From Margaritifera margaritifera (Eukaryota; Mollusca; Bivalvia; Unionida; Margaritiferidae), in assembly GCA_029931535.1 (NCBI GenBank), contig JAQPZY010001415.1:1-64000 (forward strand): a stretch of 64,000 nucleotides of DNA. Reading direction: 5' to 3'. Positions 1 to 40,923 of the stretch are shown here, piece by piece (the stretch's first letter is position 1; each line of letters begins with the position of its first letter). Made by a program: the position numbers and the translations under genes. The notes beneath the pieces are model-generated. The model was not told the DNA's origin. It searched no databases and worked only from the letters and a program-made list of their open reading frames with translations.

Positions 1-216
1 ATTCTCTAGAAAAGAAATCAAATTGCCAAAAAAATCAAGTAAAACTTTAAAAATCCCCATTTGTGTAAGAGTGAGTGCGTGCGTGCGTGTATCCATACTC
101 TAAAATAACAACACAAAAAACACTTACTTTTTTTCCATTCTGGTCTATTCTCATTTTTTTTTTTACAAAATAATTCACCATGAACATCACATAACACTCC
201 AAAAAAAGTTAATTGT

Positions 217-3700: not shown

Positions 3701-4922
3701 TGTAAAGTCTTACCTCCGACCAACTTGTACAACCCCATCTTACCTCACCATTGCCAAGGAAAACTGATGTTTCCTTTATGTCGTACGTGTGCCGAAACAT
3801 GCAACCAAGATCACCCCTGTCACCACACGGAGGAAGAACGATCTTTGACAGGAACATGGGTCAGCGCCGAATTGTTTCGAGCTCTGGATCGAGGATACCG
3901 TTTGTTGAAAGTGTATCTGGCACTTTCCAACCACATCACAATACCAAAAGGACGACGCCACGAATCATCCAGGCATTTTCTCGGGGTACGTCAACCAGTT
4001 TCTCAAACTCAAACAAGAAGCCAGCGGCTATCAGTCGTGGTGTCAGACTCCCGAAGACCAAGTTCGATTCAAAGAAGAGTACCGTGACATCGAAGGCATC
4101 ACTTTGGAAGACGTCGAAAAGAACGAAGGAAAAAGATCGTTTGCCAAAGTCATGCTCAATTGTTTGTGGGGAAAAATGGCCCAACGACCCATCTTAACCA
4201 AAACGGAATACGTGACCGATCCTTATCGCTACCTTCAACTGGTGGACGACAAAAGTGTACTAGTCAAACACGTCGAAATCGTCCGTGATGATTTTATCTT
4301 AGTCAATTTCGAAGAAGAACCCAAGTTTGTAAAACCCGACAAGTTTAGCAACGTAGTCATTGCCGCCTACGTGACAGCCCATGCTCGTTTGAAGTTGTAC
4401 GACGAAGCTTTAGAAGTCTTGGGAGATCGTGTCCTGTACTTTGACACCGACAGTTGCATGTACATCCATCGACTCGGTTGCCCATACCCTACCATTCAAG
4501 GAGATCGTTTAGGAGCCTGGACAGACGAGCACCCTCAAGACACCATCCTGAGTTTTGCCAGCGGTGGCCCTAAAAATTACGGTTACCGATACCGAGACCC
4601 ACAAGGACAATTTCACACCCAATGCAAAGTCAAAGGATTAACCCTCAACTATCGAACCAGCCAAGTGGTTAACTTTGAGGTTTTGAAAAATGTTTTGCTG
4701 TCTGGACAAGTGGAAGCCTTTCGAGTGCACACGTTAGAACCTCACAAGATCGTACGGTTACCTAATCACCAAATTGTCACTCGTCCTTTACAAAAAGTGT
4801 ACCAAATCGTGTACTAGAAGCGAGTGAGACTTCCAGACCACACCACTTTGCCTTACGGACACGCCGATCTGCAGTATAAAAAAGGGCACCCCCTTGAACA
4901 GAAAAGCCAACACCAAGATTGA
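772..4922 (+). pseudogene. Protein-primed family B DNA polymerase of a Polinton/adintovirus, broken
   Basis: Replicative polymerase of the provirus. The N-terminus is basic. A Cys/His-rich zinc-binding region (about 1850-2200) is followed by the 3'-5' exonuclease domain (Exo I near 2245, Exo II HNFSGFDG near 2514). The polymerase domain has motif A (DVCSLYP near 3582), motif B (KVMLNCLWGK near 4147) and motif C (YFDTDS near 4440). This layout is typical of Polinton and adintovirus PolB. The copy is broken. Frame changes occur near 2672-2690 and near 3914-3918. A TAG at 4815-4817 is followed in the same frame by about 34 codons with a family-like tail ending at TGA 4920-4922. In Exo I the catalytic Asp of the usual FDFE is Tyr (codon 2251-2253). 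The start ATG sits 51 bases after a TATA box. Identification is firm; function of this copy is unlikely. Confidence 0.92.
4875..4880 (+). promoter_or_regulatory. TATA box for the first BIR gene
   Basis: TATAAAAAAGGG inside the 3' tail of the polymerase frame, 50 bases upstream of the ATG at 4925. Confidence 0.5.
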
Positions 4923-4924
4923 CG

Positions 4925-5314
4925 ATGACTTCAACACCGTGTGATTAACCCACTGTAGACCTCAAGTTGAAAGAATACAAATTTCCCGTGGTCTTGCCTG
5001 ACTATTGTGATTGTGCCAGTCGATTGAACACGTTCAAAAAATGGCCTAAATGGCATGGATTACCGACTTCCAATTCTTTAGCCAGAGCAGGATTTGTCTA
5101 CTTTGGACAGGGAAACAAAGTGAAATGTTTCAGTTGTGGTGTAACCATTTACATGAACCCTAAAAATTCAGCTATCCTGGAACATATCAGATGGTCTCCA
5201 AACTGTGCTTACCTTTCTTTGGAGTTTCCACCGATTACATTACAGTACTTTGCGGATGGTACAATCGACAGGTATAAAAAAAGGAACCACTTCCATTCTG
5301 ACTTTCAACGTTGA
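4925..5314 (+). pseudogene. BIR-domain (IAP-like) protein 1, early nonsense codon
   Basis: Single BIR (baculovirus IAP repeat) domain. The zinc ligands are seen in KCFSCG...LEHIRWSPNC as C-x2-C-x15-H-x6-C, preceded by the usual helical part ending LARAGFVYFGQG. BIR domains bind caspases or IAP antagonists, so an anti-apoptotic role is inferred. No RING finger follows. The ATG at 4925 is 50 bases from a TATA box, but codon 8 is TAA (4946-4948). The frame is then open to 5314 with no other upstream ATG, so this copy is probably dead unless a near-cognate start is used. The canonical Trp between the second Cys and the His is missing and the spacing is one residue short, unlike the next gene. Tandem paralogue of the gene at 5335. 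Confidence 0.75.
5273..5279 (+). promoter_or_regulatory. TATA box for the second BIR gene
   Basis: TATAAAA followed by an A-run and GG, inside the 3' end of the first BIR frame and 62 bases before the ATG at 5335. Confidence 0.5.
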
Positions 5315-5334
5315 CCGAGCAAGAAGAAAAAAAG

Positions 5335-5940
5335 ATGAGTAATTTTGTCATCCTCCCACCAAAGATGAATAAGAATACTCATGCCACCCACCCACCAAGG
5401 GAGAAATCTAGTGTGAACTCCAAGTGCCATCACGACTTGGAGTGCGATGCAGTGCCATGCGACGAGACGGATTCCGTACGCTTTGGCATCGGCGATTCAC
5501 ACGATCAGACGGATGCCGTACGCTTGGACATCGTCGATGCTGTGCGTGTGCCTCACCGTCCCTCTAGAGATGCAGGACCTCCTTTCTTCTTTATTGGGAA
5601 AAATGCTAAACGTACCTGTGAATGTCATAAAGAATTGACGATACCTGTGGCTTTGCCTGGCTATTCCAAGTATGAAAGGCGACTCCAGACGTTCCAAGAC
5701 AAGTGGCCTAAATATCTACTACAATCAACTACTGACAAAGCTTTAGCCAGATCTGGATTTATCTACTTGGGAGAAGGAGATAAAGTTCAGTGTTTCAGTT
5801 GCGGTGTGAGACTTCACCAATGGGAGCCTACCGACTCAGCTTACATTGAACATGCCAGATGGTCTCCGCACTGTCAGTTCTTACCTTTAGTGGCCTTAGA
5901 AGAGTACGGGTTCTACGAGCCAGATGCCAAGAAGAAGTAA
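5335..5940 (+). CDS. BIR-domain (IAP-like) protein 2, intact
   Basis: 201 residues, ATG 5335 to TAA 5940. Residues 1-95 are a low-complexity region with an imperfect internal duplication (DETDSVRFGIGDSHD / DQTDAVRLDIVD). Residues about 100-185 are a BIR domain with canonical zinc ligands C153, C156, H173 and C180 (C-x2-C-x16-H-x6-C) and the expected Gly and Trp. No RING or CARD is present. Viral IAP-like proteins with one BIR usually block caspases or sequester IAP antagonists; that role here is inferred. It follows the broken BIR gene directly, with its TATA box inside that gene, so the pair arose by tandem duplication and only this copy stayed open. Confidence 0.8.
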   Translation: MSNFVILPPKMNKNTHATHPPREKSSVNSKCHHDLECDAVPCDETDSVRFGIGDSHDQTDAVRLDIVDAVRVPHRPSRDAGPPFFFIGKNAKRTCECHKELTIPVALPGYSKYERRLQTFQDKWPKYLLQSTTDKALARSGFIYLGEGDKVQCFSCGVRLHQWEPTDSAYIEHARWSPHCQFLPLVALEEYGFYEPDAKKK

Positions 5941-5941
5941 C

Positions 5942-6112
5942 ATGTCGGATGATACTTTACAATGGTACATTCGTGGTTTACCTTTGGAGTTGCTAGAACA
6001 CATTTACAGAGAATGGGTTCAGATACAAGTGAAACGTAAAGAACAGTTACATCCTTTACGACATACATGTTTTAACCATTGGCATCTGAATTTTATAAAA
6101 AATACTGATTAG
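5942..6112 (+). CDS. Small F-box-like protein
   Basis: 56 residues from ATG 5942, whose A directly follows a single base after the BIR stop, to TAG 6112. Residues 9-45 (IRGLPLELLEHIYREWVQIQ and onward to CFNHW) resemble an F-box: LPxELL, a helix, then a Cys and Trp near the end. F-box proteins bridge substrates to Skp1-Cullin ubiquitin ligases. The same motif recurs twice in the next frame. Downstream DNA at 6118-6195 in another frame reads as a possible degraded extension, so the gene may be truncated. The F-box call rests on pattern only. Confidence 0.4.
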   Translation: MSDDTLQWYIRGLPLELLEHIYREWVQIQVKRKEQLHPLRHTCFNHWHLNFIKNTD

Positions 6113-6196
6113 TACCAAGATATTCAAATGGTCAGACATTCATGAAGGACTAGAAGACCACTTTAAGAGTTTGGAATCACCACCTACAATGTTTCA

Positions 6197-6832
6197 GTGA
6201 TCCATAGAATTCGATGGAACGAAGTGAAGGAAAAAAATGTGACCAACAGACCAGAATACCAAAAACTTTTACTAGAAGTGTCACCTCAAGACGAAACGTC
6301 TTTACGTCGACTGACGTGTAATACGGTTCTTCTCACTGATCATCTTAGACATCCTTTACCCACCGATTCCATTTGGCTAAAGTGTGAGTATTTTGTCACG
6401 AAGAAGACTAGTTCAGAAAATCGCATTCGTGACTTGCCTTCGAAGTTGCGAGTACGAATTTACAAAGAGTTGGTCCAGATCCAAGTGAAACGCAAACTCA
6501 AAGTCATTCCTCGATTTTTAAACTATTGCTACTTCCACCGTATCAGAAGTCTGATTCTGGAGAGAAACTATCACCGCTATCGTGAAGAACACAAAGGAGA
6601 GTTACTTCTTTCCAAGTCGGAAACTTTACCAGAGTACATTCGTGGTTTGCCTTTGAAGGTGCGAGAACGCATTTACCGAGAGTTTGTCAAGATACAAGTG
6701 AAACACAAACTCAAAGTCATTTCTCGATTTTTAAGGTATGTTTACTTCCAAACTGTCAGAAGAAAGATTCTGGAGAAAACCTTTCATTGTAGAATCCCTG
6801 GAATAGTCTATCACAAAAGAACCTGGATATAA
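6197..6832 (+). CDS. Protein with two tandem F-box-like repeats
   Basis: Open frame of about 211 codons ending at TAA 6832. No ATG opens it: the first in-frame start-like codon is GTG 6197 and the frame is closed upstream by TAA 6164, so the 5' end may be lost. Residues 1-45 (RWNEVKEKNVTNRPEYQKLL) resemble the N-terminus of the next gene product (PWKEVNDRVQTLEDYKHLI). Two repeats of about 55 residues follow (IRDLPSKLRVRIYKELVQIQ and IRGLPLKVRERIYREFVKIQ), homologous to the small protein at 5942 and F-box-like in outline. Placed next to BIR genes, a role in host ubiquitin or apoptosis control is possible but unproven. Confidence 0.5.
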   Translation: MIHRIRWNEVKEKNVTNRPEYQKLLLEVSPQDETSLRRLTCNTVLLTDHLRHPLPTDSIWLKCEYFVTKKTSSENRIRDLPSKLRVRIYKELVQIQVKRKLKVIPRFLNYCYFHRIRSLILERNYHRYREEHKGELLLSKSETLPEYIRGLPLKVRERIYREFVKIQVKHKLKVISRFLRYVYFQTVRRKILEKTFHCRIPGIVYHKRTWI

Positions 6833-6835
6833 AAA
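6828..6835 (+). promoter_or_regulatory. TATA box overlapping a stop codon
   Basis: TATAAAAA overlaps the TAA stop (6830-6832) of the upstream frame and lies 59 bases before the ATG at 6887. A second TATAAAA at 6873 is only 14 bases from that ATG. Confidence 0.5.
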
Positions 6836-6886
6836 CCCGCCACAAAAGATACCCACCTTGGGAATCTCACCCTATAAAATCTCACC

Positions 6887-7435
6887 ATGCCTGATCTGTG
6901 GTCTTCACTCGTGAAACTGATTCCGTGGAAGGAAGTCAACGATCGTGTTCAGACCTTAGAGGATTATAAACACTTGATACAAGAACTGTTTCCATTGAAT
7001 TTTGGACGCTATGCAGTGTGTGTGTTAGTGACTACCTTTCTTGGATTTCGTTTTCCAGGACATTCGTTGTGGAGTATTTTTGAGGATCAGTGTTTGTCTT
7101 GGATTATTTTGGAGGACCCGTGGTTGTTTTGGACTATTTTGATGACCCATCAAAAAAAAAAAAAAAACATGACCATTCATGCTTTATCGGTACACGAAAG
7201 ACAAATTGTACTCAAAGTGTTGAGAGTGGTGATGAAGACAAGTGGTGTACCTCCGTGTGAAGAAGACATTAGTCAAACTTTATCTACCTTTGACACGTTT
7301 CAAGAAGTGTGTATTGCTAGTGAGTTACACCAACAACTTACCGATTGTAAAGATGTACGTGACTGGAGAAAAATTGGTTTCGATGCTTGGCTACAAGAAG
7401 TGGCTCAGTTTGCCAAAGATCTGGCACGTCACTAA
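6887..7435 (+). CDS. Uncharacterised 182-residue protein sharing an N-terminal domain with its neighbour
   Basis: ATG 6887 to TAA 7435. Residues 1-40 share a pattern with the start of the preceding frame (Trp-x-Glu-Val, then Tyr-x-x-Leu). Residues about 43-95 are hydrophobic and include two imperfect copies of a WxIF/WxIL-type unit, reflecting a short tandem DNA repeat at 7065-7145. A 16-base A run at about 7152-7167 encodes QKKKKN, then an internal ATG (7169) starts a more ordinary helical segment of about 88 residues. The A run is a frameshift hotspot. The protein may really be two genes, or start at 7169. I do not recognise a family. Confidence 0.5.
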   Translation: MPDLWSSLVKLIPWKEVNDRVQTLEDYKHLIQELFPLNFGRYAVCVLVTTFLGFRFPGHSLWSIFEDQCLSWIILEDPWLFWTILMTHQKKKKNMTIHALSVHERQIVLKVLRVVMKTSGVPPCEEDISQTLSTFDTFQEVCIASELHQQLTDCKDVRDWRKIGFDAWLQEVAQFAKDLARH

Positions 7436-7473
7436 GTTTCCTAAAGTGCAATGGGAACCTAAGTAAAAAAAAA

Positions 7474-7755
7474 ATGACCTTAGAAACCATCCTGGAAGAA
7501 GAAGAACCTGACACAGCAGAGAAAGACCACACCGTCGTCGTCGTCCAAATACAACCCTCTGAGGAACATTTTTCCAAAACAAAGACGACCAGAAGAATAC
7601 TACCACCAGTGCCTGGACCTTCCATTCCTAGGACAGTGTTTTGTTCTTGTTGTACATTTACTTGTTTGTACAGAACTTTAATTCTTTTAGTGGTAGCCTT
7701 AATCTTGTACCTCACCATTTTTGCCGTTTGCATTTTTGTCCTTCATGACTTGTAA
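7474..7755 (+). CDS. Small tail-anchored membrane protein
   Basis: 93 residues from ATG 7474 to TAA 7755. The N-terminal half is acidic and hydrophilic. A Cys-rich stretch (residues about 53-62, VFCSCCTFTC) precedes a strongly hydrophobic segment (about 66-92, TLILLVVALILYLTIFAVCI), then the C-terminus. This predicts a single membrane span with the N-terminus cytosolic, and possible palmitoylation of the Cys cluster. Small membrane proteins are common in this virus group. No family assigned. AATAAA signals follow at 7790 and 7796. Confidence 0.6.
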   Translation: MTLETILEEEEPDTAEKDHTVVVVQIQPSEEHFSKTKTTRRILPPVPGPSIPRTVFCSCCTFTCLYRTLILLVVALILYLTIFAVCIFVLHDL

Positions 7756-7789
7756 AATATGTTTTTGTTTGTTTGTTTGTTTTTGAAAA

Positions 7790-7801
7790 AATAAAAATAA
7801 A
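7790..7801 (+). terminator. Overlapping polyadenylation signals
   Basis: Two AATAAA hexamers (7790-7795 and 7796-7801) lie just after the small membrane protein gene and just before the TATA box of the ATPase gene. Confidence 0.5.
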
Positions 7802-7814
7802 CGTGTATGAAACG

Positions 7815-7820
7815 TATAAA
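7815..7820 (+). promoter_or_regulatory. TATA box of the ATPase gene
   Basis: TATAAA abuts the ATG at 7823 but is 56 bases from the in-frame ATG at 7871. The usual spacing in this provirus therefore argues for 7871 as the real start. Confidence 0.5.
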
Positions 7821-7870
7821 AAATGTCTTGGGTCTTTTGTCTTCTTCTCAAAAATCTTCCTACCTCAGTC

Positions 7871-8611
7871 ATGGCTACATCTTCTTCTGCCTCGTCTGCC
7901 TCTTCTACTTCCTCTGTGGTCAAAGCGATTGACGAAAAGTTAGATCGTCCCAGTTGGGACGCTTTGTATCTGCGCCATCCCTTTAACATGTTGATTGCTG
8001 GACCCAGTGGTTCAGGCAAAACCGAATTTGTCAAACGTTTGATCGAACACAAATCTCATTTGTTCGATCGTCCACCTCAACGTATCCTGTGGCGTTACAA
8101 AGAGTGGCAATCGTCTTACACTTTATTGAAAGAAAGTCAAGGAGAAGCCATTTCGTTTGTAGAAGGCATCCTTCGCGAAGACGATGGGATCGTGTCTGAC
8201 GTGAGTCAAACACATCTGGTCATCTTTGACGACATGTTAGGAGAAGACGAAGAAGAAATTAAACTTTGGTTTACACGAAAAGGACACCATCGAAATGCCA
8301 GCATCATTTACATTACTCAAAATTTATTTCAACAAAGTAAAGCCCATCGTACCATCAGTCTCAACTCTCATTACGTGGTGTTGTTTAAAAGCCCCAGAGA
8401 CAAATCTCAAGTGCAAGTGTTAGCCAAATAGTTAGGCACTCCTTGGTTGAATTATGCGTACGACGATGCCACTCAAACACCTCATGCGTATTAACTAATT
8501 GACTTAAAACCGACCACTCCCGACTATTTGAGATTTCTTGCCCACTTGTTTCACCACTGGTGCCAAGAAGGAGGTCCTTTCATTTACACGTCCCCTTCAG
8601 TCACACTCTGA
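7871..8611 (+). pseudogene. FtsK/HerA-type genome-packaging ATPase, in-frame stops near the C-terminus
   Basis: DNA-packaging ATPase of the A32/HerA-FtsK class found in Polintons. A Ser-rich start is followed by the P-loop GPSGSGKT (8000-8023), then Walker B LVIFDD (8216-8233) and the family motif TRKGHHRNASIIYITQN. The frame stops at TAG 8429-8431, reads on for 20 codons to TAA 8492-8494, then continues to TGA 8609-8611. The segments after the stops (ending YAYDDAT and starting LIDLKP) look like the normal family C-terminus, so both stops are nonsense mutations. An upstream ATG at 7823 is in frame, but 7871 fits the TATA spacing. ATP-binding residues are intact. Identification is firm. Confidence 0.88.
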
Positions 8612-8626
8612 AGAAAAAAACTATAA

Positions 8627-9581
8627 AAACATCTACTACGTCATTTCTGTCTCACAGTCTTCGAGATTACTTCCTTTCAATCTCATCCTCCTGCTAAATT
8701 GATTCGTGCCTTGTATGGCATCAGTCGCGAAAAAAATGCACAAGTCCGTGCTCATTTGTTAGAAGCTAGTCTTAAAGAAGTGTTACGATGGTTTACTTTG
8801 ACGGCACGTCAATTACTGCAAGGCATCATTCACATCCCTCGTCAAACTCAACGTTTTTTTTCAAAAACATAAAGGGGCGTTGTCACAACTAGCAGATCCT
8901 AGAATCGATCCACGGACTAAAAAACAAATCATTTTAACCCCTGGAGGGAGCGGTGCTTTAGGAGAGGTTATGATTCGTTCCCTTTTGAAATGGGATCCTA
9001 ATGCCCAAGCCAAAAAACCCAAAACACCAAAAAAGAAGAAAAGTCCCAAAAAGAAAGCCACAAAAAAGAAAAGCCCTAAAAAGAAAGCCCCCAAGAAAAA
9101 GAAGAAAAGTTCTGCCAAGAAGAAGAAAACACCCACCACTGCAAGGAGCCGCAAGAGAGGTTCTGCTGCCAGGACGCAAACGTACACCCGCAAGACACCA
9201 CCACCACAGCCAGCAGTGACGAGGTCTCCTTTTGCGTCCACTTCTTCGTCTTTTTCACCACCCTTCATGATCATGATGCCTGCCAAACCGGACTTAAGAC
9301 AAGTGTTTCCTAATTTGATGCAAAAATGGAAACCCATTTCGAAAGTCACCACGTCGGGACCCTCGACTTCGGCTGATCTAGCCATGGCAGCGGCCGCGAA
9401 CAAAGTACCGTCCCCTAAAACCAAAGTCCAAGAAAGTACCGGCGTGTTACAAAGTTTAGTGGATTTATCCAAAGAAGAATTGAGACGATTTAGTCCATTG
9501 AAAACACCTCAACGTCGAGTGAGGCCTGTCATGAAGATGGTACGTCGTGCAGACAATCAGTGGAGACGTGTTCCAGTATAA
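8627..9581 (+). pseudogene. Lysine-rich core-like DNA-binding protein, frameshifted
   Basis: Two frames joined at a run of eight T (8854-8861). The first is open from 8627 with no ATG and stops at TAA 8870; the second continues in another frame to TAA 9581. The upstream part is helical (AKLIRALYGISREK... through LQGIIHIP). After the break comes a segment containing PGGSGALGEVMIRSLL. Next is a tract at 9001-9200 with repeated SPKKK/APKKK units like an H1 tail, then a Pro/Ser-rich region and an Arg-rich C-terminus. A genome-condensing core protein, analogous to adenovirus core proteins, is the best guess. A TATA-like element at 8622 would place the start near 8672-8680, where no ATG remains. 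Confidence 0.6.
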
Positions 9582-9583
9582 AA
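9577..9583 (+). promoter_or_regulatory. TATA box overlapping a stop codon
   Basis: TATAAAA overlaps the TAA (9579-9581) of the lysine-rich gene and lies 55 bases before the ATG at 9632. Confidence 0.5.
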
Positions 9584-9631
9584 TAGAAGGGTGACCTGAA
9601 AGAGACTTCAGACTTATTCCTAACCTCTAAG

Positions 9632-10051
9632 ATGGCTCCCAAACGTGCACACCACCACCACCACCAAAAAAAGAAGAAAAGCAAAAAAGGACTTCCACCT
9701 CGTCTGGCGAAACATTGGGACGTCTTGTCTGTCCTGACCAAATCCAATCCTCCCATGCGAAAACAACTCATTCAAACAGCCCCCAAAGAAATCATCGATA
9801 CCGTGTGTGAATGTTGTTTTAACGTCTTGAAAGGAACGGTACCTTTGTCCAAGATACAGAAACAAAAATTAGGCAAACATCGGAACGTTCTTCGCCAAAT
9901 GGTGAAAAAAAAAATACCTCTCCAACAAAAGAAAAAAATGTTGGTGCAACGAGGAGGATTTCTACCTATGCTGTTAGGACCGTTGTTAAAAATAGCGGGT
10001 CCTTTGTTAGGAACGATTGCTGGACCACTTTTAGGAGGTGTCATGCGATAA
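9632..10051 (+). CDS. pX-like virion protein with C-terminal hydrophobic repeats, intact
   Basis: 139 residues, ATG 9632 to TAA 10051. A basic, His- and Lys-rich N-terminus is followed by a conserved helical core (LAKHWDVLSVLTKSNPP, then CECCFNVLKGTVPLS) and a lysine-rich KKMLVQRGG motif. The C-terminus is Leu/Gly/Pro-rich (FLPMLLGPLLKIAGPLLGTI). The RGGFLP plus hydrophobic repeat pattern is common to Polinton and adintovirus late proteins and resembles adenovirus membrane-active or core peptides. I recognise the family but not its exact function. The frame is unbroken, unlike most neighbours. Confidence 0.7.
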   Translation: MAPKRAHHHHHQKKKKSKKGLPPRLAKHWDVLSVLTKSNPPMRKQLIQTAPKEIIDTVCECCFNVLKGTVPLSKIQKQKLGKHRNVLRQMVKKKIPLQQKKKMLVQRGGFLPMLLGPLLKIAGPLLGTIAGPLLGGVMR

Positions 10052-10116
10052 AAAAAAGAAGATAAAAAGGACACCCTTCTCTGGAAAGACCACACCTTTT
10101 TGTACCTTTGGATGAA

Positions 10117-10779
10117 ATGGAAGGACGAAAACTGACTTTAGTACCTTACAAACGATGGCTGGAATTCCATCGTTGGAACGAAAAACGGATACCTCATTTA
10201 CCACCCAATCCTAATCTCAACGAGATGTCACAGTTGCAACAAGAATTGCAAACGCTGATGGAACGAAGCGATTTGTCAGAAACAGAAAAATCGCAACGGT
10301 ACGGTCAACTCTTACAACGTCTGCAACTCTTTCACCAAAAAGCTGTCGACGAAACAGCTCCACCCACTCTGAGAGATTTCAAAACCCTGATGAAAAGCGA
10401 ACCTAAAGTTACCACCACCACCACTAAAACAGACACCGCCACGGGGATGCCAGAATAAGACGAGCGCCGAGAAGTGTTTCAAACTCCGTCTGCTGGCATA
10501 CCTAGTCAAATTGCAGCTTCCTTGTTGACACCCTCTCCTACCCCTCATCGAGAAGCCATGAAAGCTTGGGTTAAAAAGAAGATGTCCACTCCTTCTTCAG
10601 CAGAAGAAAAAAAGAAAGACAGCAAGACTGAAGTGAAAAAAGACACCACCAAAAAGAAACCTACCATCATTGCCCCTTCTTCACTACCCACTCCTGTGGC
10701 TCGTCGAACGCGTCAAGCCGCTTCGTCCAAACCTCACGACACTCAAAGTAGTAGCATCCAACTGTGGGTAACTTATTGA
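10117..10779 (+). pseudogene. 'LVPY' Polinton late protein with in-frame TAA
   Basis: A single frame from ATG 10117 to TGA 10779, interrupted by TAA 10456-10458. The N-terminal half has the LVPYKRWLEF motif, typical of a small Polinton/adintovirus late protein, followed by a predicted coiled coil (residues about 37-75). After the stop the same frame continues with a Pro/Ser/Lys-rich region containing two short repeats (VFQTPSAG and LLTPSPTP contexts) and a Thr/Arg/Lys-rich tail. The frame keeps virion-protein-like composition on both sides, so I treat it as one gene with a nonsense mutation. A degenerate TATA (gATAAAAAGG) lies at 10061, 56 bases before the ATG. Confidence 0.55.
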
Positions 10780-10785
10780 GGAATC

Positions 10786-11908
10786 ATGGAGAAACTTTTA
10801 GCCAGCCTTTATTACAATCCTGACCATGCTGCTGGTTACAGAGGAGTTCAAAAATTGTATCGAGCTGCCAATAGTAAATTGAAAAGTGTACGTTTGCCCG
10901 AAGTACGACGATGGTTACAAGAACAATCGACGTACACGTTATACAAACCCATTCGACGAAAATTTTCTAGAAGTCCAAACCAAGTGGAAGGCATCGATCA
11001 TCAATGGCAAGCCGATTTAGCCGACGTCTCTCATTTGGCAACCTACAATTGTGGTCACAAATATTTGTTTTGTGTCATCGACGTGTTTTCTAAATTTGCT
11101 TTGCTCGTGCCTTTGACTTCTAAAAGCAGTACCGAATTGGTACGTGCCTTAAAATTGGTCTTGAAACAAAGTGGTCGTCACCCTTTACGATGGCAAACTG
11201 ACAAAGGCACCGAATTTCTAAACCAAGCTTTCCAAAAAGAATTGAAACAAAGACAGATTCATTTTTTTACTACCGAAAATCTTGAAACCAAAGCCAGTAT
11301 CGTGGAACGTTTTCAAAGAACTTTGAAAGAACGCATGTGGAAATATCTTACACATCAACACACTCTCAAGTACATCGACGTGTTACCTCGTTTGGTCAAA
11401 GCGTACAATCAATCGTACCATCGAAGCATCGGATGTTCCCCCCTAAGAGGTCAGTCCTGAAAACGAAGTGACCGTATTTGATCGATTCTTTGGTACACCC
11501 CAGAGCAGACCAATCCAGAAAAAAACCTTGCTGGAGTTGAAGACGGGAGATTGGGTTCGCATCGGAAAAACCAAACACACTTTTGACAAAGGTTATTTAC
11601 CCAACTGGACCACCGAATTGTTTCGTGTCACTACACCCGTGCGTGGACGCGATCCTCCCGTCTATAAATTGGAAGACATGCACGGTGAAGTGCTCCAAGG
11701 AACATTTTACTTGCCTGAGTTACAACGAGTGACTAAAAAAGAAGACGCCTTGTACGACATCGAAAGCATTCTCGAACAAAGAACACGCAAAGTAGGCAAA
11801 CGTCGAGTAGAAGAAGTCAAAGTACGTTGGAAAGGATATCCTCCTAGTTTTGATTATTGGATTGCTGCTTCCCAAGTCGTCGACTATAAAAAGAAGAAGA
11901 AGCAGTAA
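10786..11908 (+). pseudogene. Retroviral-type integrase with C-terminal chromodomain, frameshifted
   Basis: Integrase of the provirus, which would insert the linear genome into host DNA. ATG 10786 follows the previous stop by 6 bases. The N-terminal helical domain (YYNPDHAAGYRGVQKLY) is typical of Polinton integrases. The rve core has the three acidic residues: Asp in WQADLAD (about 11013), Asp in QTDKGTEF (about 11199) and Glu in SIVERFQRTLKE (about 11306). The frame stops at 11460. The normal continuation is in another frame from about 11447, so a frameshift lies between about 11435 and 11447 at a C run. The second part holds a basic linker and a chromodomain (YDIESILEQR to VRWKGYPPSFDYWI), which in relatives targets histone marks. 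It ends at TAA 11908. Confidence 0.9.
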
Positions 11909-11914
11909 CCTAAC

Positions 11915-12337
11915 ATGCCATTCAACACAACCACGACCTCAACTCCTTCGCAGAGTTCCTCTCTTCAAGAATTACAAAAACAACCGTTCTGGGTGTGGTG
12001 CGGGTTACGTGTGCCTAAAAATCAAATCGTCTTTTTCTGCCAAATTTTTGTGGTGTATTGTGTCATCGGAGCAGCTATTGCCAATTTGAGTTTACAACAA
12101 GGAGACAAACAATTGTGGACCATTTTACTTAGCAGTTGCATCGGTTATCTTTTACCCAGTCCCTCTTTGAAATTTACGACGACGACGGACAACAGTTACC
12201 ACAACGGTAGGACGACCAACGCCAGTCCACCACCTTCTTCCAGTCACCATAATACCACTCCTCTTTTGGAACCCTTTGAACATCCTTTGAACTCGAGTGA
12301 CACCTCGGACGCCAAAACCACTTTGGACCTACTATGA
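11915..12337 (+). CDS. Two-helix membrane protein conserved in Polintons
   Basis: 140 residues, ATG 11915 to TGA 12337, starting 7 bases after the integrase stop and overlapping the start of the minor capsid gene by 4 bases. The motif FWVWCGLRVPKNQIVFFCQ leads into a first membrane segment (about residues 39-60). A second segment (WTILLSSCIGYLLPSP) follows. The C-terminal half is Ser/Thr/Pro/His-rich and hydrophilic. I recognise this as a small hydrophobic protein found next to capsid genes in Polintons and adintoviruses; its function is unknown to me. A TATAAA at 11885 lies only 30 bases upstream. Confidence 0.6.
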   Translation: MPFNTTTTSTPSQSSSLQELQKQPFWVWCGLRVPKNQIVFFCQIFVVYCVIGAAIANLSLQQGDKQLWTILLSSCIGYLLPSPSLKFTTTTDNSYHNGRTTNASPPPSSSHHNTTPLLEPFEHPLNSSDTSDAKTTLDLL

Positions 12338-13291
12338 ATGACCAATTTTATTTAACTTTACCCAGTGACAGTTCCCAACAACACCTTATGTTGTTTCACC
12401 ACCAAATTACCTCAGTCCATCCAATTGGATCACGACGCTCATTGGGAAGAAAGTTTGGTAGAAATCATTCATCCTACGCAAATCACAAACATCAACGAAG
12501 GTCAAAACACTTTCGTCGTGGAAATCTTGAACCCAAAAATGCAAGATGAGTTGGAAAAAAATGATCCTAAAATGTCGGAATCAAAGAAAAGGGTAGTAGA
12601 TCCTAAATCTCATGTCTTGTCGCAGTATACCATGAGAATTCCTACGGGGTATTATTTCAGTGCTGAACATTTGGTGGAGACGATTGCGAACAAGTTTTCA
12701 CTCCAATTTGGCAATGCCTTAAAAGATGCCCAAAAATTTGTACGAATCGCTTACCATGCTGTGCCACGCCGTTTCATCTTGCAATGTTTCAAAGAAAAGG
12801 GGCAACTCATTGGCGAGAAAGACAAAGAATTACCCGTGGAGGAGAAAACACCCTTAACCATCACTTTTTCTCCTGGATTGTATGCTATTTTGGGTGGAAA
12901 TAAAAAGTATGCTACTAAAAAAGTCGCAAGCAACGTAGAATTCGGAGATACTTTTAAAGCCCCTATCGAATTGAACGTTGGACTAAATTTAATGTTTGTG
13001 TACTCCGATGTGGTGGAGTACAACGTGGTGGGACACACAGCTGCGCCCTTACTGAGAGTCCTTCCTTTCAAACTGGATTCTGGCGCTGGTGCTAAAGAAG
13101 AAGGTGGTGGAAACACATATCACGTTCACCATGAATTTGTACACCCTCATTATCTTCCAGTCAGTAAATCGTATTTTGACAGTGTCAACATTAGTATAAA
13201 AGGAGATTTGGGACAAAGTGTGCCATTCATTGACCAAGGAAAAGTCACGGCGAAACTACATTTTCGAAAAAAGTTCTCCAACGCATTGTAA
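12334..13291 (+). pseudogene. Penton-like minor capsid protein, frameshifted near the start
   Basis: Single-jelly-roll vertex protein (penton base counterpart) of the virion. The N-terminal family motif FYLTLPSDSS is read from ATG 12334. The rest, beginning with the typical NTLCCFTTKLPQSIQL, is in another frame, so a frameshift lies between about 12365 and 12385. The body runs to TAA 13291 and ends with the family-like GQSVPFIDQGKVTAKLHFR. The ATG overlaps the TGA of the preceding gene, which suggests tight packing of late genes. Apart from the one break the frame is clean. Confidence 0.75.
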
Positions 13292-13301
13292 CATCCAAAA
13301 A

Positions 13302-13748
13302 ATGTATCCAGTGTACCGAGGAGTGACTCGACAACGAGGACATGGTTAAGGAGATATGTTAAAATCGGCTTTTCGGACGGTAGCCCCTATTTTGAAACCC
13401 CTGGTGACTCGAGGATTCCATGCCTTAAAAGATGCCGCTTTGACGCAAGGAAAAGAATTTTTGCAAAACGTCCTCATTGACAAACAAAATCCTAAAGAAG
13501 CCTTTATGAGAGCAGGCAAAAATGTGTTGATGAACACTGGCAAAGATCTTTTAGGTCTCCGAGAGAGTCCTATAAATGCGCTTCACGCTTCAGGCCCTGG
13601 CATTACTTCTTCCTCCACTTCACAGCAAGGACAAGGTAGAAAGAGACGACGTCGAAATCCCTTCAGAGTTCATAAAACACACGGTGGTGTTCCAAAAAAG
13701 AATAAGAAAAGAAGAACCGTCAGAGAATTAGACGTGTTTGATTACTAA
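13302..13748 (+). pseudogene. Basic virion protein, 'QRGHG' family, with an in-frame TAA at codon 16
   Basis: ATG 13302 opens a short conserved start (YRGVTRQRGHG) that hits TAA 13347-13349. The same frame then continues to TAA 13748. An internal ATG at 13356 could restart translation. The body has amphipathic helices (MLKSAFRTVAPILKPLVTRG) and a basic Arg/Lys C-terminus (GRKRRRRNPF). The short N-terminus ending in RQRGHG followed by a basic amphipathic body is typical of a Polinton/adintovirus late protein similar in outline to adenovirus pVI or core peptides. The stop immediately follows the conserved Gly, at a position like a protease-processing site. Confidence 0.6.
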
Positions 13749-13759
13749 AACCTTTGAAA

Positions 13760-15115
13760 ATGATGCACCGAGATTCTTGCGAATGTACCAAGTCAGAACT
13801 GGATATGTTTACCATGCTTCCCACCATGATGACGATGCAAGAATCCCAATGGGTGGAATTTCATCCTGTATCGTCTTTGACGGAATCAGCTCCTATCGAA
13901 TTTGAAATCAAAGGACAAACTGAAGATTACATCGATCTGAATAACAGCTACTTGTACCTGAAACTCCAAGTATAAAAAAATGACAACACCCTTCCTGGGG
14001 ACGGTGACCGAGTGGCACCCGTCAATAATTTCATGCATTCCTTGTTCAGCGGAATAGATTTGTACTTGAATAACAAACTGGTCAGCAGCAGCTTGGATAC
14101 TTACCCTTACCGTACTTATTTGGAAAATCTCTTGACGTACGGAAAAGAAGCCAAGAACACTCATCTGGATGCTTCGGTGGTCTGGAAACCTGACACCTCG
14201 GAAAAGTTCAACCAAACAGACCTGTCAGTAGCGGCGAAGTCTACTGAGGATGGTAATAATGGTACTAGAGATATAATTCCAGCAGTCCAACACAATGTGG
14301 GATTTAACGACCGTCGAAAGAAAATCAGACGCAGTTTAGAACTGATGGATCGTTTGCATTTGGACATGTGGTTGCAAGACAAGTATTTGTTAAACGGAGT
14401 GGATGTACGTCTGAGACTGAATCGCAGTAGTGCCGACTTCCATTTGATGGCCGAAAGCAACGAGTGGAAAACCAAAATCCAAGAAGCCAAACTTTACGTG
14501 CGCCGTGTAGAAGTCTTACCTAAAGTAGCCAACGACATCAGTCAAACGTTGAGCAGAACCACTGCCAAGTATCCTGTGCGACGCGTGGAAGTGAAAACCT
14601 TTACCATTGCAGCTGGACTCCGATCCAAAGTCGAAGATCACGTCTTCCAAGGACAGCTCCCTAAACGTTTGCTGATTGGCATCGTCAGTAATGCAGCCCT
14701 CAACGGAGTCCACAATCAGAATCCGTTCGAGTTTAAACACTACAACGTCTCCAAGATAGAAGTCAGTCGAGATGGCAAGACATTGTGTATCAGACCTTTT
14801 GAACCTAAGTTTACCGAGAGAAATTACTTGCGATCTTACTTGAGCCTGTTTGAAGCCACAGGACAGTTAGGTACCAACACCAGCCACGGTATTTCGTACG
14901 AGGATTATGCTGGAGTGTATGCCTTGTGGGGTTTTGATTTCACTCCGGACCAAGGCAACGACGAAGAACATTTCCACCCTATAAAATCAGGCCCACTTCG
15001 TGTGGAACTTCAGTTTGCAAATCCTCTACCCGACACGGTGAACGTCATCTTGTATGCAGAATTTGATAATACTCTAGAAATCAACAGCTTGAGAGAAGTG
15101 ATTCTAGACTATTAG
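13760..15115 (+). pseudogene. Major capsid protein (double jelly roll), in-frame TAA
   Basis: Hexon-like major capsid protein of the Polinton/adintovirus type, the family that includes the C. elegans protein F54H12.2. ATG 13760 opens the conserved start (SELDMFTMLPT, then QWVEFHPVSSLTESAPIEFE and DYIDLNNSYLYL). A TAA at 13973-13975 follows, and the same frame continues (NNFMHSLFSGIDLYLNNKLV) to TAG 15115. C-terminal signature: GPLRVELQFANPLPDTVNVI. Total length is about 450 codons, the expected size. Only one nonsense codon is seen. The downstream part has no ATG near its start, so a truncated but functional product is unlikely. Confidence 0.88.
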
Positions 15116-15131
15116 AAGGAAAAGAAAAAAG

Positions 15132-16184
15132 ATGCAACACGTAGAAGAAGAACCTATGGAGATAGACGAGGGATTTTGTGAAGTACAACAGTCACAAACT
15201 ACCACGGATGATGATGATGACGAAGTCATTCATTCAGAACCTAAAAAAGAAGAAGAAAAAAATCCTTTTCCAAAGTTTGCTGGATTTATTCCATGTATGC
15301 CATCAAGATGGCCAGAACAAGAACAACATTTAGTCTCTTGTTTTGCTACGGCAATGGGTTCCAAAATTACAGAACTGTCTAGGAAAGATTGTCATGGATG
15401 TCAAATTGATCATCCCAGTCAGAAACAACACGACAAATGTTTGATGATGACGGCCGAAGAAAAAATGGACGAATATATGGAGGACGCCTGGTCTCAGATC
15501 TCGGAAGAAAAGGTGTTGAGACAATGGTATAAAGACTTGCAGCATTCTTCTTCACCTCCACTCACTCCTCTGGAGATCCGACGCATCGAAGCTCATTTAC
15601 AAAAGGCTATTGAGACTGTGCGTGATTCGTCGACTTACTTGAGAGACACATTCAAGCATAAAGTCAAGTGTGAATTAATGACTTTTCGTTACCTGTGAAA
15701 AAAATGGATACCAGGAACTTCATTACCTGTTGACATCAATACCGACGACAGTCATCGACCAGGAACCCATTGGGTAGCTGTGTACTTTCCCAACGATCAC
15801 AATGGTGGTGTGGAATATTTTGATTCTTATGGATTACCTCCTTTGGAAGACGACATCATCGAGTTTATGAGAAGAAATGCCATCTCTACTCGATTCAATA
15901 ATGCCCGATTACAAGGATTGGATTCTATGGTGTGTGGACAATATTGTGTACATTTTCTTCATCAACGCAGTCTCGGATATTCCTTAGAACATTTAGTGAC
16001 TTGTTTTGATAGAGACTATGCTCGAAACGATGCTAAAGTAGAACGATGGTTTTGTGAACATTATGGTTATCTCTTGTCTTTAGCTCAGAAACGTAGTGTG
16101 CATCAGAATGATGTAGATGTAGAAAAGTGGAAGTTTAGTTTACCTTCCCAACGTTGTCAACCCTGTAAATACGTTCCTGTTTAA
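15132..16184 (+). pseudogene. Cys/His domain fused in frame to an adenain-type cysteine protease, in-frame TGA
   Basis: One frame from ATG 15132 to TAA 16184 with TGA at 15696-15698. The N-terminal part has an acidic leader, then a Cys/His motif (CHGCQIDHPSQKQHDKCLMM) that recurs in Polinton proteins and probably binds zinc. After the stop is an adenovirus-protease-like domain (C5/Ulp1 fold) that would cleave virion precursors. Its catalytic His is in GTHWVAVYF, the acidic residue in EYFDSYG, and the oxyanion Gln and Cys in VCGQYC (about 15947). The usual N-terminal segment of adenain seems shortened. Either the two domains are one protein with a nonsense mutation, or they are two genes fused by decay. 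Confidence 0.75.
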
Positions 16185-16377
16185 TATCTTGTTGATTGTT
16201 ATTACCTTTTTATGTTAGAGAAGCTTCTTCTTGTTCATTAAAAAAATGTTGATTTTTTGAAAATAATGGTGTTGTGTGGTTTTTTTTATTGAATTTGAAA
16301 AAATTATTATGTTCTATCTCTTTCTATCGATCTGAAGTCACCCCCTCTATCCATTTCTCACTCTCAATCTGAACCCC
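16185..16377. other. Intergenic spacer between late genes and the three 3' genes
   Basis: AT-rich spacer with T and A runs and one weak ATTAAA (about 16237) that could end the protease transcript. No gene is seen. It separates the capsid/protease block from the histone-tailed gene block. Confidence 0.5.
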
Positions 16378-16420
16378 ATGTTTTCCATCGCGTCCTCGCT
16401 TCAAGCATATAAAGCGGTGC
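16378..16420 (+). promoter_or_regulatory. Promoter module of 3' gene 1
   Basis: A block of about 43 bases shared with 17346-17388 and 17964-18006: ATGTTTTCC, a GC-rich box (CGCGTCCTCGCTTC), then TATAAA at 16408-16413. The ATG is 71 bases past the TATA box. Confidence 0.65.
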
Positions 16421-16478: not shown

Positions 16479-16874
16479 ATGGCAACAGCCAAGATAAGCA
16501 AACTGAACGACGCTATGGTGAACATGCAGAGGGTGAAGCATCATTTGATGGATACCAACCCTGAGAGAAAGACAATGATCTTCCTACAAATGGCTTATGA
16601 TCTATTGGAAGAAGTCATGAGGGAAGAAATCATCAGGGACAGAACGGAATGGGAGGAGAGACAAAGACTGCAGCAGCAGCAGCAACAGCAAAGACAACAA
16701 CAACAACAACTCTTGCAGTCCATGAAACTACCCGACGGAGAAGTCAGCTGTAAGATAGACTGCGATGAGTTTGCCTTCTCTTTTACCAGAAAGAGAGCTT
16801 GTCTTAAAGCCGTGAGACCCGTGGCTAAACGTGGCCGCCCTGCTGCGGCTGCCGCTACTGCTACTAGAAGTTAA
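16479..16874 (+). CDS. 3' gene 1: helical, Gln-rich protein with AT-hook-like tail, histone-type mRNA 3' end
   Basis: 131 residues, ATG 16479 to TAA 16874. Residues about 7-52 form two predicted helices (LNDAMVNMQRVKHHL and MAYDLLEEVMREE) similar to units in the gene at 18043. Residues 55-83 are a charged, Gln-rich coiled coil (CAG/CAA repeats at 16670-16715). The C-terminus is basic with an AT-hook-like KRGRP followed by an Ala/Thr/Arg tail, suggesting DNA or chromatin binding. It is not a histone. A histone-type stem-loop lies 24 bases after the stop. The frame is intact. No known family recognised. Confidence 0.65.
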   Translation: MATAKISKLNDAMVNMQRVKHHLMDTNPERKTMIFLQMAYDLLEEVMREEIIRDRTEWEERQRLQQQQQQQRQQQQQLLQSMKLPDGEVSCKIDCDEFAFSFTRKRACLKAVRPVAKRGRPAAAAATATRS

Positions 16875-16898
16875 ACAACATAACTTCTTAACCCCAAC

Positions 16899-16934
16899 GG
16901 TCCTTTTCAGGGCCACCCATTAATCAAGAAAAGA
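16899..16934 (+). terminator. Histone-type 3' end of gene 1: stem-loop plus downstream element
   Basis: Stem-loop GGTCCTTTTCAGGGCC (16899-16914) has a six-base-pair stem with one G-U pair and the loop TTTC, preceded by CCAAC and followed by ACCCA. A purine-rich CAAGAAAAGA (16925-16934) matches the histone downstream element that pairs with U7 snRNA. In animals these signals direct cleavage without polyadenylation and bind SLBP. Confidence 0.85.
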
Positions 16935-17345
16935 TTAATTTTCATATCATTGCCATATATATGTGTTTGTATGTTTGTGTGTTTGAGTTTGTCTTTGCCC
17001 CTTCACAAAATTCCCTTTCCCAAAAAATATTGTTTGTATAGAGAGTGTGGTGTGTGTTTGATAAAAAATATAAAAAAGGATAGTGTGGTGTGTTTGATAA
17101 AAATAAAAAAAAAGGATAGTGTGGTGTGTTTGATAAAAATACAAAATCAAAAATAAAAAAGGGTGGTGTGTTTGTATGTGTTTTTTTTTTATCAAAAGTA
17201 GTTTCTTTTAGGTCCGCGCACTGGGTCTGTGTTTTTGGGGTAAGGGGTCATGGAGTGTAAAATCCGCGAAGCCTAGAATGACGTCATAGGGATGACGTCA
17301 GACTCGGGGTAGTGGGAGTAATGTTTTTTTTTTGTTTGGAAAGGA
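16935..17345. other. Spacer between 3' genes 1 and 2 with repeats
   Basis: TG/TTTG-rich imperfect repeats (units like GTGTGGTGTGTTTGATAAAAA at 17040-17180). The first part, from the downstream element to about 17020, is repeated after gene 2 (17746-17850), showing the gene units arose by tandem duplication. No gene seen. Confidence 0.6.
17279..17300 (+). promoter_or_regulatory. Two perfect CRE/ATF sites
   Basis: TGACGTCA at 17279-17286 and again at 17293-17300, about 75-95 bases upstream of the TATA box of gene 2. CREB/ATF factors bind this palindrome. Adenovirus early promoters use the same sites, so an early, host-factor-driven promoter is inferred. Confidence 0.7.
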
Positions 17346-17388
17346 ATGTTTTCCTTCACGTCCGCGCTTCTAGTATATTAAAACAACA
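17346..17388 (+). promoter_or_regulatory. Promoter module of 3' gene 2
   Basis: Second copy of the shared module: ATGTTTTCC, CACGTCCGCGCTTC, and TATATTAAAA at 17374-17383, 51 bases before the ATG. Near-identical in its GC box to the gene 3 module. Confidence 0.65.
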
Positions 17389-17424
17389 CCTTCCCTAGTC
17401 GAGCTGCCCATTTTATCTATCAAG

Positions 17425-17688
17425 ATGAACAAGACTGAAATCGTGAGACAGGTCCGAGTTCATTTAGAGGTGGTCTGGCACCTCCTCCATGACCTGGAGA
17501 AGAAGGAGAAGGAGGAGAGAGAGAAGAATATCCCCATCAAACCTCATTGGATGATGGAGGAAAAAGAAAATTGGGATCCTGAAGCGGACCATCCTCCGTT
17601 TATCCTTCACAACAACAACAAGCGCTGCATGAGTGTAGCCACATGGAGGGGAAGCTGTCCCGCTTGTCGGGCAAAACCAGGGAGGTGA
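17425..17688 (+). CDS. 3' gene 2: short helical protein with histone-type mRNA 3' end
   Basis: 87 residues, ATG 17425 to TGA 17688. Residues 3-35 form a charged amphipathic helix (IVRQVRVHLEVVWHLLHDLE) comparable to the first helix of the gene 3 repeats. The middle is acidic with WMMEEKENWDPE. The C-terminus is basic with a CPAC pair, which could bind zinc only with other ligands. Not a histone, and not a recognised family. A canonical histone stem-loop follows the stop by 31 bases. The frame is intact, with the shared promoter and two CREs upstream. Confidence 0.6.
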   Translation: MNKTEIVRQVRVHLEVVWHLLHDLEKKEKEEREKNIPIKPHWMMEEKENWDPEADHPPFILHNNNKRCMSVATWRGSCPACRAKPGR

Positions 17689-17719
17689 CCACACCTCTAG
17701 ATGTACTAAAAAACCAAAC

Positions 17720-17755
17720 GGCCCTTTTCAGGGCCACCCATTACTCAAGAAAAGA
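17720..17755 (+). terminator. Histone-type 3' end of gene 2
   Basis: GGCCCTTTTCAGGGCC (17720-17735) is a perfect six-base-pair, four-base-loop histone stem-loop, with CCAAAC before and ACCCA after. CAAGAAAAGA follows at 17746-17755, 10 bases downstream. Confidence 0.88.
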
Positions 17756-17963
17756 TTAATTTTCATAATTGCCATAGGTGTTTGTATGTTGGTGTGTTTG
17801 AGTTTGTGTGTTTGTCTTTGCCCCACTTCAAAAAAATTCCCATTCCCTGGTATGTGTTTGTATAGAGTGTGCATGATAAAAAAAGAAAAAAATAAAAAGG
17901 ATGGTGTCGTGTGTGTTTTGTTTGTATGCTTGATAAAAAAAATTATGTTTTGGAAAAAAAGGG

Positions 17964-18006
17964 ATGTTTTCCTTCACGTCCGCGCTTCGAGCATATAAAG
18001 CGGCGC
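17964..18006 (+). promoter_or_regulatory. Promoter module of 3' gene 3
   Basis: Third copy: ATGTTTTCC, CACGTCCGCGCTTC, TATAAA at 17994-17999, then GCGGCGCC as in gene 1. The ATG is 49 bases past the TATA box. Confidence 0.65.
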
Positions 18007-18042
18007 CTTCCGCAGTCGCACCATTCACACTTCAACTGAAGA

Positions 18043-18639
18043 ATGAATACTGTAGAGCTATTGCAGGAAGCCTGGGATATCATGGTGGGTGTGGAGTCTT
18101 TAGTGGAAAGGTTGGAGTGTTGGTGGAGATATCCTGCCACCAAGCCATACGTCACCAGCCAACTAGCGGCTTTCACTTCAGCGAGGAGGCTGGTGAAGGA
18201 TGTCTTGGTGGAGGAAACCCAAAAGACTTCTTCGGCTTCTTGTCGTGTGGGTTTTATCAAGTCAGCCCTCGACTTACTGGATGGGGTGGAATACTTCCTA
18301 AACAAAGTTCAGGAAGATTGTTGGATCTATCCACCCGCCAGTAGCGTCAGGCGTGAAGAGATAAATCTTCACACGACAAAATTATTATTAAGAAAAGTTT
18401 TGGAGCAAGAAGTAGCCCACATTAAGATCTTGTGGGCTCTCGAAAGAAGTCAGAAGGAACAGGCCAGGAAAGAAAAGGAATTTCAACGCCTGAATTTAAA
18501 CTGGATGAAAATCCAGGATAAGTTCAGACGTATGGAACATCCAGACTGGCTACCCAATCCACCAGCCCCACTCCAGAAGAAGAAAAAATCTCACACCACC
18601 TTCCTAGGCTTCTTTACTCAATGTTGGAGGAAAAAGTAA
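18043..18639 (+). CDS. 3' gene 3: protein with two tandem helical repeats, histone-type mRNA 3' end
   Basis: 198 residues, ATG 18043 to TAA 18639. Two repeats of about 55 residues (about 6-58 and 66-124) share the pattern A-x5-GVE...W-x-YP...L-x-x-VL-x-E-E: AWDIMVGVESLVERLECWW with LVKDVLVEE, and ALDLLDGVEYFLNKVQEDCW with LLRKVLEQE. A charged coiled coil (about 130-165) follows, then a Pro-rich segment and a basic C-terminus (KKKKSHTTFLGFF). Gene 1 contains one related unit, so the three genes look paralogous. Function unknown. The stem-loop begins 12 bases after the stop. Confidence 0.65.
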   Translation: MNTVELLQEAWDIMVGVESLVERLECWWRYPATKPYVTSQLAAFTSARRLVKDVLVEETQKTSSASCRVGFIKSALDLLDGVEYFLNKVQEDCWIYPPASSVRREEINLHTTKLLLRKVLEQEVAHIKILWALERSQKEQARKEKEFQRLNLNWMKIQDKFRRMEHPDWLPNPPAPLQKKKKSHTTFLGFFTQCWRKK

Positions 18640-18651
18640 TCCTCCTCCAAC

Positions 18652-18687
18652 GGCCCTTTTCAGGGCCACCCATTTTTCAAGAAAAGA
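18652..18687 (+). terminator. Histone-type 3' end of gene 3
   Basis: GGCCCTTTTCAGGGCC (18652-18667), preceded by CCAAC and followed by ACCCA, then CAAGAAAAGA at 18678-18687. Same arrangement and spacing as the two upstream copies. Confidence 0.88.
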
Positions 18688-18708
18688 TTAATTTTCCATT
18701 CTTGCCTA

Positions 18709-18883
18709 CCATGTTAAAATTCCCGTTGGTACCTGTAGAGGCCCCAATGTTAATTTCCCGTTTGTACCCAGAGTGCCCCCGCCATGTTAAATTCCCGTTG
18801 GTACCCAGAGTTCCCCCGCCATGCTAAATTCCCGTTTGTACCCAGAGTGCCCCCACTGACCTCAATACCCCCCATATACTACT
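18709..18883. repeat. Terminal repeats and candidate right terminus of the provirus
   Basis: About four imperfect units of 37-38 bases (core TTCCCGTTGGTACCCAGAG then a C-run), followed by CCCCCCATATACTACT ending at 18883. Read from the outside, this end begins AGTAGTATATGGGGGG. Polinton terminal inverted repeats begin with AG, so this is the likely right end. Bases 18884-18889 (CAAGTG) would be the right copy of a 6-bp target duplication. The left end is outside the window, so neither can be verified. Confidence 0.5.
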
Positions 18884-18943
18884 CAAGTGGTTCCACAACC
18901 AATATTACTGGGCCAAGCACTCGGGAAATCAACTTTAGAGTTG

Positions 18944-19356: not shown

Positions 19357-19359
19357 CCT

Positions 19360-39660: not shown

Positions 39661-40923
<1,263 letters not shown>

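Follow-up and report, generated by a model that had tools for sequence, protein, structure and literature searches.

Why should genes that encode no histone carry the 3' end of a replication-dependent histone messenger RNA (mRNA)? The question is raised by a 64-kb stretch of the Margaritifera margaritifera genome (referred to here as the window), which is the start of contig C192 in a 2.45-Gb assembly and holds a provirus that is multicopy and Polinton/adintovirus-like. Between 16.3 and 18.9 kb of the window lie three tandem cassettes, with genes that we refer to as g1, g2 and g3, each built in the same order from a 23-nucleotide (nt) motif, a TATA box, a short leader, one open reading frame (ORF), a stem-loop, the flank ACCCA and the element CAAGAAAAGA. 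Judged from their sequences, it is quite probable that the provirus expresses these small non-histone genes, together with two more (g4 and g5) found in its relatives, by way of the replication-dependent histone pathway of the host.

The first-pass annotation of the window had placed histone stem-loops at 16899, 17720 and 18652, 12-31 nt past the stop codons, two of them perfect and the third with a G-U pair, and this description holds. The Rfam model Histone3 scores above its gathering threshold of 34 bits at all three (E-values from 1.3e-6 to 5.5e-10), with 35.5 bits for the stem-loop of g1 (16899-16914, forward strand, as are all features of the cassettes), which has the one G-U pair, and 40.6 and 44.5 bits for the perfect stem-loops of g2 (17720-17735) and g3 (18652-18667). 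They begin 24, 31 and 12 nt past the respective stops, and an Rfam scan of the window found no other family or place at gathering. The ACCCA flank followed by a U7-type element, also reported earlier, was recovered too: CAAGAAAAGA begins 10 nt past each stem-loop, at 16925..16934 in g1, where it is a putative U7 site, and as sequence matches at 17746..17755 in g2 and 18678..18687 in g3, with a core and spacing like those of host histone H3 genes. Further on, the pentamer TTGCC stands 51, 49 and 50 nt from the stem start in g1 (16950..16954), g2 (17769..17773) and g3 (18702..18706). Allowing up to three mismatches, GGYYCTTTTYAGRRCC matches 11 times in the window against 5.93 expected from shuffles, and its matches with no mismatch are the g1-g3 sites only; TCAAGAAAAGATTAATTTTC occurs exactly three times and has four matches at up to three mismatches, against 0.04 expected.

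That none of the three proteins is a histone is borne out by the lack of any match to the histone domain PF00125, which extends to g4 and g5. The g1 ORF (16479..16874) encodes 131 amino acids, the g2 ORF (17425..17688) 87 and the g3 ORF (18043..18639) 198; no Pfam family matches above cut-off for any of these three proteins, nor for seven representatives of g1-g5, and g1 and g3 are orphans with no relatives in the protein collection at E<=1. The ratio of nonsynonymous to synonymous substitution (dN/dS) is 0.22 and 0.39 for g1 against two relatives and 0.25 for g2 against one. The cassette flanks are visibly duplicated when the window is compared with itself; paralogy of the three proteins was considered and no case could be made for it (best BLASTP E 0.035). 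An I-x-C-x-E motif in g1, which we take to be of the Rb-binding type, was set aside as not conserved, with W replacing C in one of three aligned copies. The fold of g3 predicted from the single window sequence is all helical, with a mean predicted local distance difference test score (pLDDT) of 58.1 and a predicted template modelling score (pTM) of 0.31, a quality too poor for a fold search. Directly after g3 the DNA runs into tandem repeats, first of ~37-nt units (18707-18854) and then of ~85-nt units (18928-19357).

The likeness to the host's own histone genes is close. Among 15 host histone 3' flanks, 14 have the stem-loop (one of these with 5/6 pairs), and the sole flank without it (L137) comes from an intron-split H3 gene and serves as a natural negative control. 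All seven H3 flanks carry the hairpin GGCCCTTTTTAGGGCC, and six of the seven H2B flanks carry GGCCCTTTTCAGGGCC, which is also the commonest viral hairpin, identical over its 16 nt. The downstream form of g1-g3, CAAGAAAAGA, is found in 4/7 host H3 flanks, the other three having ATGAAAAGA or CTGAAAAGA; the downstream form of g5, TCTAGAAAAGA, is found in 4/7 host H2B flanks, with TAGGAAAGA in two and neither in one, and g1 of two relatives carries the H2B-like form. Distances from the stem to the downstream element agree between virus and host, and TTGCC lies 50 nt from the stem start in all four host H2B flanks examined, compared with 49-51 nt in g1-g3. The H4, H2A and H1 genes of one 8-kb host unit also have both stem-loop and downstream element. 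On C668, C226, C1281, C318 and other contigs, histone-like matches were seen in arrays; these matches contain in-frame stops or have odd lengths, and some are ~1.74 kb apart.

A second likeness, missed in the first-pass annotation, lies at the other end of the genes. A 23-nt motif, TGTTTTCCATCACGTCCGCGCTT, is present without mismatch in 3/3 host H2B promoters read, while its best match in each of three host H3 promoters has 10-12 mismatches; looser forms precede host H1, with 3 mismatches, and lie near H2A on the opposite strand, with 4. The window has three occurrences of the motif, one per cassette, against none in 100 shuffles: at 16379..16401 for g1 (2/23 mismatches, TATAAA 6 nt beyond), at 17347..17369 for g2 (1 mismatch, TATATTAA 4 nt beyond) and at 17965..17987 for g3 (1 mismatch, TATAAA 6 nt beyond). 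This motif bears on a rival account in which the histone 3' end is truly processed but S-phase coupling is not what the element gains: the benefit would be that short genes without introns are ended and exported independently of poly(A), or that they are expressed in bulk in the germline and early embryo. The ORFs of g1-g3 are indeed short and single-exon, and an integrated element is generally understood to gain from germline expression, but an H2B promoter motif points to histone-type transcription, beyond 3' processing, and we consider this account unlikely.

The signals extend well beyond the window. A genome-wide Histone3 search gave 75 scored matches, all above cut-off, a figure that is a lower bound because the window's own three stem-loops are not among them. 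A scan of 70 of these 75 loci, together with 5 kb of the window, that required at least 5/6 stem pairs found 108 stem-loops with a downstream element (4/108 counted twice owing to overlapping loci), and five small ORF families precede 100 of them: by BLASTP grouping g3 precedes 39, g4 37, g5 12, g2 7 and g1 5, with 8 unassigned. Of the two families absent from the cassettes, g4 is a basic protein of ~63-77 amino acids and g5 a protein of ~200 amino acids with acidic and basic parts. The stem-loop is thus present in five gene families across the related copies of this genome, as predicted by the earlier note, for which its absence from all related elements would have been a refutation. Chance or an origin of the 70 loci from host histone genes was rejected, there being no tblastn match to host H4, H2A, H1 or a 35-amino-acid piece of H2B. 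Copy number invites a different explanation, namely that the hairpins serve as decoys, titrating SLBP or U7 and thereby upsetting the host's histone supply; a g3 protein search of the genome returned very many copies (4395 first-look candidates, 150 of them scored, giving at least 150 scored copies). Decoys are scarcely probable, since the signals keep a fixed, short spacing behind ORFs and are accompanied by promoter motifs, an arrangement proper to genes that are to be expressed.

Whether the signals are still of use, or are passive relics of histone control regions captured once and copied along with the element, can be asked of their retention. Since the 70 loci had been found via the stem-loop, samples chosen without it were taken. 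The first was every fourth row of the scored g3 copies (38/150), read with 170 nt downstream; 2/38 are also among the genome Histone3 matches. All six stem pairs are intact in 32/38 and at least five in 34/38, and AGAAA lies within 34 nt in 37/38; of the four copies below 5/6, three retain the downstream element behind an altered stem, and in the fourth (L113) both are gone. The second sample comprised genes on the 70 loci other than the gene that brought the locus in, scored for at least 5/6 pairs and a TTTT loop; its independence is partial because a further stem-loop lies on the locus of each such gene. The signal is present in 3/3 copies of g1, 10/11 of g2, 5/7 of g3, 15/17 of g4 and 18/23 of g5, and the 10 misses seem to be altered stems or variants of the loop. 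The duplicated cassette flanks and the 4/38 sampled g3 copies with fewer than five stem pairs are what passive relics might leave, yet such high retention is not.

Divergence between lineages tells in the same direction. Across 15 pairs of six g3 representatives, all except the window's found via the stem-loop, the 46-nt signal keeps 0.89-1.00 identity at protein identities of 0.38-0.93, and the 100 nt past the signal fall to 0.45-0.53 in 11/15 pairs (random mean 0.46, maximum 0.54), which argues against relics. In the remaining 4/15 these 100 nt are 0.65-0.87 identical, and since one such pair has proteins at 0.39, flank and protein divergence do not always run parallel. Paired changes in the stem count against relics as well: among the 108 copies, for which at least 5/6 pairs had been required, the two commonest stems differ on both sides of pair 4, with C-G in 35 copies and U-A in 27, and both sides of pair 3 are changed in one copy. 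Together these patterns make passive relics very improbable. The coding genes are under constraint, with dN/dS of 0.19-0.42 in 11/13 pairs (1.51 in one recent pair, one saturated), which favours the main interpretation.

Of the components that such signals would need, the host has SLBP and candidates for U7. Exons for the RNA-binding part of SLBP are present, with PF15247 at 64.3 and 38.8 bits against a cut-off of 27, the weaker match having one in-frame stop. For the U7 small nuclear RNA (snRNA), three candidates at loci with different flanks (L174-L176; C747:72179, C813:273655 and C1292:4560864) consist of TCTTTTCAAGTTTCTCTAG, which we take to be a sea-urchin-like U7 form, with an Sm site and then a short conserved hairpin (-9.3 to -10.6). 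Other candidates were discarded: an initial one (a 24-mer at 5 places, plus a variant) is a repeat without a 3' hairpin, nineteen more with the pattern of that initial one have a best 3' fold of -8.2, mostly weaker, and the hairpin is also absent from a third repeated match (11 places, 1 read) to the pattern that gave L174-L176.

The simplest account is that the element acquired control regions from histone genes of its host, those of H2B being the nearest match, and put them to use around unrelated ORFs. The 3' signal could have arisen by convergence, but this is unlikely for the 23-nt promoter motif. Processing by SLBP and U7 is to be expected, as the viral signals are identical to the host's own: SLBP would bind the hairpins of g1-g5, the U7 small nuclear ribonucleoprotein (snRNP) would pair with the downstream element, the RNA would be cut a few bases past the hairpin and the resulting mRNA would lack a poly(A) tail. 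Expression would then follow S phase, when host replication functions could serve viral DNA, a timing that would be a natural consequence of histone-type control. It is probable that at least five non-histone genes form a regulon of this virus lineage, with an SLBP hairpin and a U7 site in all five, an H2B motif in three, and poly(A)-less mRNAs made in S phase. The earlier interpretation of g1-g3 as users of the host histone pathway is supported, more strongly by the host-like core and spacing of the downstream element and by the H2B promoter motif than by pairing with U7; the loss of poly(A) and the S-phase timing are our inference.

Several observations weigh against this interpretation. The evidence comes from one genome and is of sequence only, and the type-B polymerase is broken across three ORFs, a sign that the provirus is decayed. 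AATAAA occurs downstream of g1 (17102, 17152) and g2 (17891) and could act as poly(A) sites. The viral flank is not quite the host's, ACCCA starting 103/108 scanned 3' ends and host flanks having mostly ACACA or ATACA, and the promoter motif stands 4-6 nt before the TATA box in viral genes compared with 27 nt in host H2B. Within 300 nt of the ORF and at up to 4 mismatches, the promoter motif is found in 4/4 relatives of g2 and only in 1/2 of g1 and 9/17 of g3, and is absent at g4 (0/25) and g5 (0/8); by this distribution the histone likeness is at both ends for g1-g3 and at the 3' end only for g4 and g5. A genome-wide Rfam search for U7 found nothing, and under the U7 model two of the three candidates fall short of the gathering score of 34, at 25.7 and 14.9 bits, with the third unlisted. 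The proposed check of U7 pairing gave a divided answer: the candidate pairs over 7 bp with GAAAAGA in viral and host elements, and this is partly circular because the search pattern required that 7-mer. The pairing reaches -7.3 for g1-g3, equalled by 12, 9 and 7 of 500 shuffles respectively, and -7.4 to -10.2 with six host elements; as the 7-mer was required and the reversed control gave 66 matches against 22 for the pattern, independent support for U7 comes only from the hairpin and from the score in Rfam.

The remainder of the provirus in the window (772..16184, forward strand) comprises type-B DNA polymerase pieces (viral/organellar, protein-primed-type; PF03175, E 1.2e-22), a BIR protein, an A32/FtsK-type packaging-ATPase-like protein (Pox_A32, E 2.1e-8), a retrovirus-like integrase (rve, E 3.8e-13) and capsid ORFs, which we take to be hexon and penton. 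The capsid ORF has 332 relatives and no Pfam family; among the matches listed (120 of 332), those bearing names are oyster proteins and one from a Candidatus Thiodiazotropha bin (P0006), the latter probably contamination from the bivalve that hosts this bacterium. An ATTAAA at 16237..16242 (forward strand), 52 nt past position 16184, where the last ORF before g1 stops, is possibly an ordinary poly(A) signal for the gene block preceding g1. The stretch 4985-5216 is duplicated at 5644-5888 (69% identity), the second copy lying inside the BIR protein ORF. No inverted self-match that could mark terminal inverted repeats was found in the window, and the left end of the element is missing because the element starts where the contig starts. 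On the minus strand at 39120-43586 there are ORFs resembling another Polinton-type remnant; the sole one searched, 39120-39428, matched nothing in Pfam at 0.01.

Gene order varies among copies. Polymerase-like sequence lies ~340 nt past g3 in L020 (1846-3043) and beyond g5 in L146 (770-1999), and a position of g5 beside the polymerase in the latter would suit early, replication-tied expression. Window positions 1-295 match L085 (2679-2987) immediately past g5, so the g5 of the window element may be off the contig start, and a tandem or permuted arrangement of elements is possible.

If the interpretation is right, it provides an exception to the rule for the histone 3' end, in that a virus equips unrelated genes with it and with the promoter motif of a histone gene, and thereby a class of animal protein-coding mRNA beyond histones that uses it. 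Proviral expression would be tied to host DNA replication, and the histone pathway would be shown to be borrowable, a natural test of what its signals alone can do. The signature can be searched for across other animal genomes. In the viral collection IMG/VR, searches with two patterns for the stem-loop hit 1 and 11 contigs, with 0/12 loci at any Rfam gathering score and the single-contig match sitting within an ORF; searches of IMG/VR for capsid relatives found none, and four pattern matches in prokaryote genome contigs included no Histone3 (0/4).

Among known systems, the replication-dependent histone genes of the host (H3, H4, H2A, H2B and H1) come closest, sharing with the viral genes the stem-loop, the core and spacing of the downstream element, the TTGCC distance, the H2B promoter motif and a short intronless ORF near the stem-loop; unlike them, the viral genes encode non-histone proteins, have the ACCCA flank and are mobile and multicopy. 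Polinton and adintovirus elements resemble the provirus in their type-B polymerase, rve integrase, A32-like ATPase and a capsid ORF with oyster-genome relatives, but searches of the open-licence full text of PubMed Central (PMC), outside which most subscription papers lie, listed no report of histone-type 3' ends on them or on viral protein genes, in keeping with the earlier statement that no such use was known. The HSUR RNAs of Herpesvirus saimiri are, like the proviral genes, a viral use of a host 3'-end pathway without poly(A); they are non-coding and snRNA-type, unlike protein genes with histone ends. The relevant passage of one paper gives a Histone3 match in SARS-CoV-2, the same Rfam family in a virus, but at 14.7 bits, far below the gathering score of 34, and inside the nsp3 coding sequence (PMC7786107), and another passage compares a viroid loop to the histone hairpin (PMC6827988). 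Adomaviruses, animal DNA viruses related to adintoviruses, are described in part of a further source as having histoid genes, and so as having also taken something from histones; there it is the protein that is histone-like, whereas here the control regions are histone-like and the proteins are not (PMC11071296).

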